From Nitrosomonadales bacterium (GTDB taxonomy: Bacteria > Pseudomonadota > Gammaproteobacteria > Burkholderiales > Gallionellaceae): a stretch of DNA of 42,999 nucleotides. A program made the translations under genes and the position numbers. Within the stretch, counting starts at the first letter, position 1. Every line of letters begins with the position of its first letter. Positions 748-13,526 of this stretch are shown here, piece after piece. Under the pieces are notes generated by a model. That model searched no databases, was not told where the DNA came from, and saw only the letters and a list, made by a program, of their open reading frames with translations. The stretch lies in NCBI GenBank assembly GCA_023259065.1, contig JAHFQY010000019.1, positions 2,386-45,384 on the forward strand, written 5' to 3'.

Positions 748-793
748 GGCGGCATTGTAGCAGTTGATGCGGCAAAACCATCACCCTCTCCCC

Positions 794-823
794 TGCCCCT
801 CTCCCGCAAGCGGGAGAGGGGCA
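794..823. repeat. Perfect 13-bp hairpin between divergent genes, REP-like
   Basis: The sequence forms a perfect 13-base-pair stem (arm TGCCCCTCTCCCG) around a CAAG tetraloop. It lies between divergent crcB and the DUF2157 gene, so it does not end either transcript by position, and no T-tract follows. A CTCTCCCC half-copy lies just to the left. C/T-rich hairpins of this kind are common dispersed intergenic repeats in proteobacteria. The core resembles the arms of the palindromic element found inside kdsB. Confidence 0.7.
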
Positions 824-905
824 GCTTTATCCGGCTGCACGTTTAATTTGCGCCGGCACTGCCATCGGTTATAGTTACCTCATTGTGTTTGTTCAGGAGG
901 CGGGT

Positions 906-12437: not shown

Positions 12438-12612
12438 ACTACTCGACATTCTGGTTTGCCCGCTGTGCAAATCACCCTTGGTTTATCGCAAGACAGAACA
12501 GGAGCTGGTATGCAAGGCAGACCGCCTGGCCTTCTCCATCCAGGATGACATCCCCGTGATGCTGGCAGACGAAGCACGCAAACTGTCGCAGGAAGAAATC
12601 GACAAACTCTGA
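12427..12612 (+). CDS. Trm112/YcaR family small zinc-binding-like protein
   Basis: A 61-residue protein beginning [20 protein letters not shown], with the CPLC pair at 11-14 and a further Cys at 29, and the family end [11 protein letters not shown]. The family resembles the eukaryotic methyltransferase activator Trm112. In proteobacteria it is almost always encoded between lpxK and kdsB, as here. Its first codons overlap lpxK, and its stop overlaps the kdsB start (TGATG). The bacterial role is not established. Confidence 0.93.
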
Positions 12613-13526
12613 TGCTTGCCTTTCACGTCGTCATTCCCGCTCGCATCAGCTCCACCCGCCTGCCCGGCAAGCCGCTGCTGCCCATAGCCGGCAAACCCAT
12701 GGTGATACGCGTGGCGGAACAGGCCGCACAAAGCGGCGCACAGCAGATCTGGATCGCCACCGATCACCCGCCCATCATGGCGGCCGTGCATGAACATGGT
12801 TTCAAGGGCTGCATGACGCGTGCCGACCATCCCAGCGGTACCGACCGCATTGCCGAAGTGGTGGCGCAACATGACTGGGCCGATGACACCATCGTGGTGA
12901 ATGTGCAGGGCGACGAACCGCTGATACCGCCGCAACTGATACGCGCCGTGGCCCAGCATCTGCACGATCATCCGGAGTGCGCCATGGCCACGGCCTGCCA
13001 CCCCATCCACGACGAAGCCTCCATGCGCAACCCCAACATCGTCAAGGCGGTGGTGGACAAGAACGGCAACGCCATGTACTTCAGCCGCGCACCGATACCG
13101 TATCCGCGCGATGCCTTTATGGGTTTACCCTCGTCTGAAGGACGAGACGATTGCCCTTCCTCCCCGCAAGGGGGGCTGCGAGAGGGTGATGCCAAAGGCA
13201 TCGGGCACCCTTCGGCGTCCCCCTTGCGGGGGGAAGTTGGAAGGGGGGAGCTCCCTGCAAATAACACCGAACTTCCCGCCAACCTCACCGTGCTGCGCCA
13301 CATCGGCATCTATGCCTACCGCGCCAGCTTTTTGCGCGCCTACAGCCAGCTGGCGCCCACCACCATCGAGCAGATCGAGGCGCTGGAGCAGCTGCGTGCG
13401 TTGTGGCATGGCTACAAGATAGGCGTTACCATCACCCGGGATGCGCCACCCAGCGGAGTCGATACCGAAGCCGACCTGCTGCTGGCGCGCAAACTTTTCG
13501 AAGCAAACCAACCATTAAACAATTAA
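12612..13526 (+). CDS. kdsB: CMP-Kdo synthetase KdsB with in-frame insertion
   Basis: 3-deoxy-manno-octulosonate cytidylyltransferase, which activates Kdo with CTP for lipopolysaccharide core assembly. Family motifs are intact: [14 protein letters not shown] near the N-terminus, [52 protein letters not shown] and GVDTEADL. It is 304 residues long against about 250 in the family. The excess, roughly 47 residues, lies between Phe169 and Leu228. This extra part is Gly/Pro/Ser-rich and is encoded by a palindromic element. All catalytic blocks lie outside it, so the enzyme is probably active, with a surface loop. Confidence 0.95.
13156..13236. repeat. Palindromic element inserted in kdsB
   Basis: Imperfect long palindrome within the kdsB reading frame. 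Outer arms of about 18 bases (CTTCCTCCCCGCAAGGGGG and its near complement) enclose GGGTG/CACCC and a perfect central hairpin GATGCC-AAA-GGCATC at 13188-13202. The inserted DNA, judged against the normal protein, runs from about 13123 to 13268. At least two forward and two reverse frames are free of stops across it. Exact ends and any target duplication are not clear. Confidence 0.75.

Follow-up and report, generated by a model that had tools for sequence, protein, structure and literature searches.

Why does the gene for an essential enzyme in a Gallionellaceae genome carry a block of extra codons whose DNA forms a long palindrome, and what could have brought it there? We addressed this question in a window of 42,999 nucleotides, by which we mean the whole stretch of DNA that was analyzed. 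The first-pass annotation, made from the letters of this stretch, had described kdsB as encoding 304 residues with an extra block of about 47, and had likened the DNA of that block to the palindromic elements of Rickettsia. The features on which our account turns are these:

12612 to 13526, forward strand: kdsB, CMP-Kdo synthetase (3-deoxy-manno-octulosonate cytidylyltransferase), 304 amino acids including the insert; from the open frame, Pfam CTP_transf_3 and KdsB matches in the PDB.
13119 to 13256, forward strand: in-frame insert of 46 codons, after the DAF codons (13110-13118); from comparison with the 16-residue loops of relatives.
13122 to 13190, forward strand: type-A palindromic element, with its first hairpin at 13130-13146 and its second hairpin split by element D; from covariance model R1 (49 bits, E=6.2e-13) and the type-A alignment.
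13156 to 13236, no strand assigned: long imperfect palindrome, consisting of the second type-A hairpin plus nested element D; from the inverted repeat 13162-13181/13212-13231 and the fold.
13166 to 13227, no strand assigned: nested palindrome D (GCAAGGGGGG...CCCCCTTGC), its ends placed from type-A copies that lack D.

The extra block in KdsB was borne out. Pfam CTP_transf_3 covers residues 6-270 of the frame (E=9.6e-61), and the best solved KdsB chain aligns to the window's protein in two blocks, query residues 6-170 and 226-292, with a gap between them. In most Gallionellaceae this loop has 16 residues, and alignment with a relative of the same genus whose loop is empty (L088, DAFASTSPLPAGMNVL) defined the insert ends: 46 codons at 13119-13256 rather than the roughly 47 residues at 13123-13268 first proposed, a span placed too far downstream by four bases at its start and by 12 at its end. 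The palindrome first read at 13156-13236 also held up, its 81 nucleotides folding into a single, nearly unbroken hairpin (-62.7 kcal/mol with RNA parameters), and the DNA fold of 13123-13268 has a z of -5.68 that none of 200 dinucleotide shuffles equaled. The first-pass annotation had further pointed to the absence of stops in at least two forward and two reverse frames. That count is right, the third reverse frame having only a terminal stop, but it is weak evidence: four of the six frames are open against a shuffled mean of 2.35, and in many of 17 type-A inserts tested the open-frame count lies near or below the shuffled mean. Open frames, being largely explained by composition, were accordingly dropped as evidence for a palindromic element.

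Palindrome types A, B, C and E were named by eye from the inserts in KdsB loops. Judged from its sequence, the window insert is a type-A element split by a further palindrome, D, with the frame kept through the two of them. A type-A copy without the D segment is found in another genome (G148:C5, which is L042), and the inner part of D, 13177-13231, has family copies up to 95% identical by BLAST (L058 95%, L059 93%, L060 93%). The first type-A hairpin is adjoined by GACG, or CGTC on the other strand, at 13146-13149. In KdsB loops, type B is read as the peptide LPSPAGGRGVGGEG, type C as SLTPALSRGERE and type E as GITSDLA...SQPSRMASSS. Nesting recurs elsewhere, with element E found within type A (L009, and in reversed orientation in L099) and within type B (L041, L043, L112 and L038); seven of the 44 long loops, with 22-27 residues, fit no palindrome type clearly. 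We also observed element E, which is palindromic and about 50 bp long, nested in the palindromes of three units that contain a DUF559 gene (L388, L394 and L395), a class of unit described below.

The same A-plus-D insert is present in kdsB of a same-genus genome (G004) at 85% DNA identity. A second full copy of the whole insert was not found in the window's own genome, where four other places match 14-29 bases of it, and the plasmid collection searched with the insert gave no match. The first-pass annotation had looked to genomic copies as a sign of mobility, and this holds for the component palindromes, which are dispersed, but not for the insert as a whole. An Rfam search around kdsB returned nothing credible, only three matches to miRNA or lncRNA families at E 0.54-0.84. 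The KdsB insertion itself is well supported by these comparisons: the 46 extra codons are palindromes nested one in the other, of a type that looks mobile, and are translated with the gene. The likeness to Rickettsia elements thus survives insofar as an in-frame palindromic repeat in kdsB would work in the same way, with the correction that there are two nested elements and not one.

How the enzyme might accommodate such a peptide is suggested by structure prediction. In an AlphaFold2 model of KdsB with a mean pLDDT of 81.7, most of the core scores above 85 and residues 172-218 score below 50; the predicted core matches KdsB structures such as 3oam, 3k8d and 4xwi. On this model the insert is most likely a floppy, disordered loop. 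The surface loop that had been proposed at first pass would, in this disordered form, probably be tolerated, and the inserted peptide may be without a function of its own while KdsB still works.

The named relatives are Gallionellaceae, and a KdsB match was found in 145 of the 150 family genomes searched. The loop was measured in 145 loci from 143 genomes, two of which have a second locus (left out were G161, at a contig end, and G171, a weak match); 141 loops were measured by a script that uses in-frame anchors only and four, all without an insert, by eye. The loop has at least 20 residues in 44 of the 145 loci and at least 33 in 26. Most KdsB proteins of the family do not carry the long loop: it has 18 residues or fewer in 101 loci, and exactly 16 in 92 by script. 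No frame shift at the loop occurs among the 145 loci, and among the 44 long loops a length of exactly 35 residues recurs 12 times. Peptides of types A, B or E were absent from 21 kdsB loci of the same order outside the family (22 fetched, L282 left out), the loop there being 8 to 29 residues long in the 16 measured by script, with five more read by eye.

Comparison of filled and empty loops, such as L150 with 31 codons against the empty loop of L137, which has DTF, places the insertion directly after the DAF or DTF codons, in pairs too divergent to define a target-site duplication. The type-A-bearing L098 and the empty L141 differ at 8 positions in the 900 bases upstream of the loop and at 34 in the 700 downstream, which is suggestive only of recombination at the loop. 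On a tree of kdsB, a single short gene with weak support (L247, which is short, the outgroups, L251 and L258 were dropped), insert presence requires 33 changes, where shuffled labels require 37.8; of 300 shuffles, 13 did equally well. An attempt to count independent insertions on this tree was given up, the insert label being nearly random on it. Because the phylogenetic signal is weak, we claim no number of insertions, and separate insertion events, losses and recombinational exchange of the loop are indistinguishable. Since other Gallionellaceae carry palindromes of other sequence in the same loop (A, B, C, and E nested in A or in B), we regard the kdsB loop as a recurrent landing site, to whose pattern loss and recombination may contribute.

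The palindromes also occur well beyond kdsB. Model R1, which describes type A, matches at least 120 of 150 family genomes at E <=0.01, in a strictly filtered search that scored no more than 33 candidates per genome; its one strong match in the window's own genome is the one in kdsB, with eight other places at E 0.011 to 0.060. Among 64 R1 loci (L305-L372 minus four incomplete ones, with kdsB itself represented four times), 12 occupy in-frame positions in five recognized genes: TruB (L305), HrpA (L306, L307 and L314), HisH (L309, L312 and L363), GcvT (L353 and L355) and an FAD oxidoreductase (L315, L318 and L352), where HrpA and HisH are names that we assume for their hosts. Pfam families agree in the six of these 12 loci examined, at least one per gene. 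The remaining R1 loci were left unclassified because GC-rich DNA is often open by chance; in L310, the type-A element is in frame within what we take to be an ApbE-like protein. The element is read differently according to its host, in one forward frame in KdsB, in another in HrpA and HisH, and, for the oxidoreductase, on the reverse strand. In HisH, the inserts of L309, L312 and L363 share one position; that the L363 insert might be an unrelated palindrome was ruled out by its alignment to L309 (52 identities, 19 mismatches and 14 gaps), and it is a diverged or replaced relative. The first-pass annotation had stressed a bacterial group distant from Rickettsia and an essential gene, both of which stand for Gallionellaceae kdsB, but the insertions are limited neither to kdsB nor to one strain.

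Type B is abundant in the window's own genome, where model R2 for this type gives 33 matches at 30 non-overlapping places at E <=0.001. One of them lies in the window apart from kdsB:

782 to 826, reverse strand: stand-alone type-B palindrome, apparently intergenic, of the DUF559-associated kind; from model R2 (43.7 bits, E=4.9e-9).

What might move these palindromes is suggested by their association with a family of nuclease genes. The DUF559 domain occurs in Vsr-like PD-(D/E)XK endonucleases, according to the available part of PMC12907096. In the HrpA-like protein of L306, a DUF559 domain stands ahead of Helicase_C, and palindrome peptides mark each of its two junctions. Of 60 family genomes, 43 gave a DUF559 match, as did 68 of 200 genomes from the phylum, and the loci studied are the best-scoring ones rather than a random draw. 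A family example reads CCCCTCTCCC-loop-GGGAGAGGGG-CTGGGGGAGAGGG upstream of the DUF559 gene and its reverse complement downstream. We scored such bracketing by comparing the 200 bases upstream with the reverse complement of the 200 downstream, against the 99% level of shuffles. Within the family, inverted bracketing was seen at 21 of 23 evaluable DUF559 loci (30 fetched), whereas Y1 transposase loci (34 fetched, 24 evaluable) showed it twice and 587 random windows five times, and when the DUF559 flanks were moved by 400-1250 bp it fell to 0-1 of 23 in the family and 0-2 of 29 outside it. The mean score of matched flank pairs in the family exceeded all 10,000 re-pairings. Outside the family, 17 of 29 phylum loci lie above their own 99% shuffle level, and 4 of 10,000 re-pairings did as well; counting against a general role of DUF559, bracketing is absent from the other 12, and at one of the 17 (L456) the match is unlike this palindrome type.

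Palindrome and nuclease similarity are correlated within the family (Spearman 0.576; 0 of 5000 permutations), a correlation that can partly reflect units inherited together, and across the phylum no correlation was found when opposite-side flanks were compared (0.024), which again counts against the DUF559 step. Palindrome-ended DUF559 units also lie in frame in HrpA-like proteins, between DEAD and Helicase_C in L397 and between HA2_C and the OB fold in L402, and in an MmeI-like methylase protein (L401). As separate observations, a DUF559 gene outside the family (L438) is flanked on either side by inverted repeats of about 100 bp that match almost perfectly, and at L374 the start of the gene downstream of the DUF559 unit is apparently near-duplicated at both sides of the unit. 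The units of L374, L377, L380 and L383 lie between genes that we take to be ABC transporter ATPase-like and permease-like.

The palindromes of KdsB and those of the DUF559 units share sequence. Model R2, trained only on six type-B inserts of KdsB, was run at E <=0.01 on 30 DUF559 and 34 Y1 loci and gave 57 matches in 25 of the DUF559 loci and none in the Y1 loci; these matches lie mostly at the borders of the gene, those at one end being on the strand opposite to those at the other. On 66 kdsB loci (415,580 bases) the same model gave 19 matches, 11 of them in the kdsB loop, of which five are training sequences. With R1 at E <=0.1, all 45 matches fell in DUF559 loci and none in the 34 Y1 loci, and the two models together touch all 30 of the former. 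In the window's genome, the DUF559 gene L395 has a palindrome to either side (R2, E 0.003 and 0.004), one of them split by element E. Copy numbers could be compared in the six genomes common to the R2 search, which covered eight, and the DUF559 search, too few for testing: R2 and DUF559 matches number 33 and 3 (one weak) in G000, 40 and 3 in G073, 6 and 1 in G016, 6 and 0 in G004, 4 and 0 in G067, and 1 and 1 (weak) in G081. The R2 palindromes without a DUF559 match in G004 and G067 count against the DUF559 step, as does the make-up of the window insert, which is A plus D, whereas the cleanest DUF559 link is with type B; type-A palindromes share sequence with the DUF559 units, which are putatively mobile.

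We consider that nested, translated palindromes in KdsB with DUF559 as their mobilizing partner are, on balance, probably the best joint explanation. Comparison shows a type-A palindrome in the kdsB loop, in frame and immediately behind the DAF codons, with its hairpin interrupted by palindrome D, again in frame. Copies that are in frame and free of stops survive in the loop, and out-of-frame ones would presumably be lost. The palindromes may be related to a palindrome-DUF559-palindrome unit as its non-autonomous forms; in that unit the Vsr-like PD-(D/E)XK nuclease, and not a RAYT transposase, would nick or break DNA at palindromes, with palindrome copies spreading through the repair that follows. 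The assignment of mobilization to DUF559 is made because of the bracketing, the co-divergence within the family and the in-frame units. Stated more generally, and only tentatively, Pseudomonadota palindromes of the form CCCTCTCCC-loop-GGGAGAGGG could be the ends and solo copies of a DUF559 Vsr-like nuclease unit that spreads by nuclease-triggered repair, also in frame into KdsB, HisH, GcvT, TruB, HrpA and MmeI, and would then make up a second, RAYT-independent class of REPs.

The main rival to this proposal is that DUF559 genes home into pre-existing inverted pairs of palindromes, or REP dimers, which would be their targets while something else spreads the palindromes. Bracketing and in-frame DUF559 units would look identical under homing, the two genomes with palindromes and no DUF559 match fit it readily, and the available text of PMC3733652 describes head-to-head dimers as predominant in known REP families and REPs as targets of insertion sequences. 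Homing is nonetheless the less comfortable reading of the family data, in which palindrome similarity tracks nuclease similarity even when upstream flanks are compared with the downstream flanks of another locus, a pattern to which shared inheritance of the unit contributes, and of palindrome-ended DUF559 sequences in frame inside HrpA-like and MmeI-like proteins. We regard it as unlikely, yet as deserving serious attention.

That these are ordinary REPs moved by RAYT (Y1) tyrosine transposases, with DUF559 a bystander, seems improbable. Y1_Tnp is common enough, with five matches in the window's genome and at least one in 46 of 60 family genomes; some 500 bases away from one of the Y1 genes in the window's genome, 23 bases weakly match the insert, and RAYT-REP pairing is the mechanism proposed for GTAG REPs in the part of PMC3733652 available. 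RAYT mobilization is not supported by the Y1_Tnp loci themselves, none of the 34 having an R1 or R2 match, where many Y1 matches may not be RAYTs proper and the models cover types A and B, and 2 of the 24 evaluable ones being bracketed by inverted repeats. Still harder to sustain is the idea that loop length is under selection and the extra peptide functional in KdsB: the 35-residue loops and the reading frame kept across 145 loci would fit it, but the loop is predicted to be disordered, several different peptides occupy one KdsB site, and L098 has in L141 a near-identical gene without the loop. An origin by local slippage or by tandem duplication within a GC-rich loop, or as an artifact of metagenome assembly, hardly merits belief even though metagenomes are the source of most named relatives and similar motifs recur within the longest loops (L039 and L046), since similar sequences occur in other genes and genomes, the insert-bearing kdsB genes of separate records (L054 and L098) encode the same peptide, and Ferriphaselus sp. 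R-1 (L114), not labeled as metagenome-assembled, has a palindromic loop of 27 residues.

Our findings bear on how proteins gain loops. Recurrent, stepwise in-frame insertion of palindromes appears here in an enzyme that is essential, and near-identical genes with a filled and an empty loop lend themselves to direct tests of loop gain. The DUF559 unit, if the proposal is true, could answer what moves palindromes that have no known transposase. Judged by title or the start of the abstract, no literature linking DUF559 to palindromes or REPs was found in a search whose coverage excludes most subscription journals, and none apparently related to palindromes in Gallionellaceae.

In-frame palindromes are already known in other bacteria, and the KdsB case is a variant of them. 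As with the Rickettsia palindromic elements, reviewed in PMC10969869 as far as its accessible portion goes, palindromic DNA lies in frame in unrelated protein genes and is translated, in several families and copies, and TruB is a host both there, according to the accessible text of PMC3733652, and for type A in Gallionellaceae. The likeness is one of behavior, and the Gallionellaceae inserts differ in being nested, in recurring at one loop and in being read in different frames and strands in different host genes. Outside Rickettsia, the accessible text of PMC3733652 describes in-frame intragenic REPs in TruB, RNA helicases and repair genes, and REPs at about the same recB site in two Xanthomonas species; KdsB is not named as a host in that portion of the paper.

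Type A resembles the intragenic GTAG/CGTC REPs, as portrayed in the same partial source, in its in-frame insertion and in a CGTC-like tag beside the first hairpin: GACG occurs in all 17 type-A loops tested, in 15 of them as GAGACG beside the hairpin. According to that text, CGTC REPs have a stem of 8-9 bp that almost always starts with AT and a loop of 4-5; as read from the alignment, the first type-A stem has about 6-7 bp, starts with TC/GA and has a loop of about 3, outside the CGTC stem definition. Types A and B, moreover, flank DUF559 genes and were not found at the 34 Y1 transposase loci, whereas a flanked Y1 gene marks the GTAG REP/RAYT system; type A has a CGTC-like tag, and the gene that it adjoins here is of a nuclease type and not a Y1 transposase. 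VsrA of Caulobacter shares the DUF559 Pfam domain and, in the part of PMC12907096 available, is Vsr-like, is linked genetically to the DNA damage response and is discussed in terms of mismatch repair; the word stem "palindrom" is absent from its main text. There is a parallel in organization with the RAYT-REP units, or REPtrons, in which the gene of a DNA-processing enzyme is likewise bracketed by inverted palindromes that also occur alone, but the bracketed gene here encodes a DUF559 PD-(D/E)XK nuclease and not a Y1/HUH transposase.
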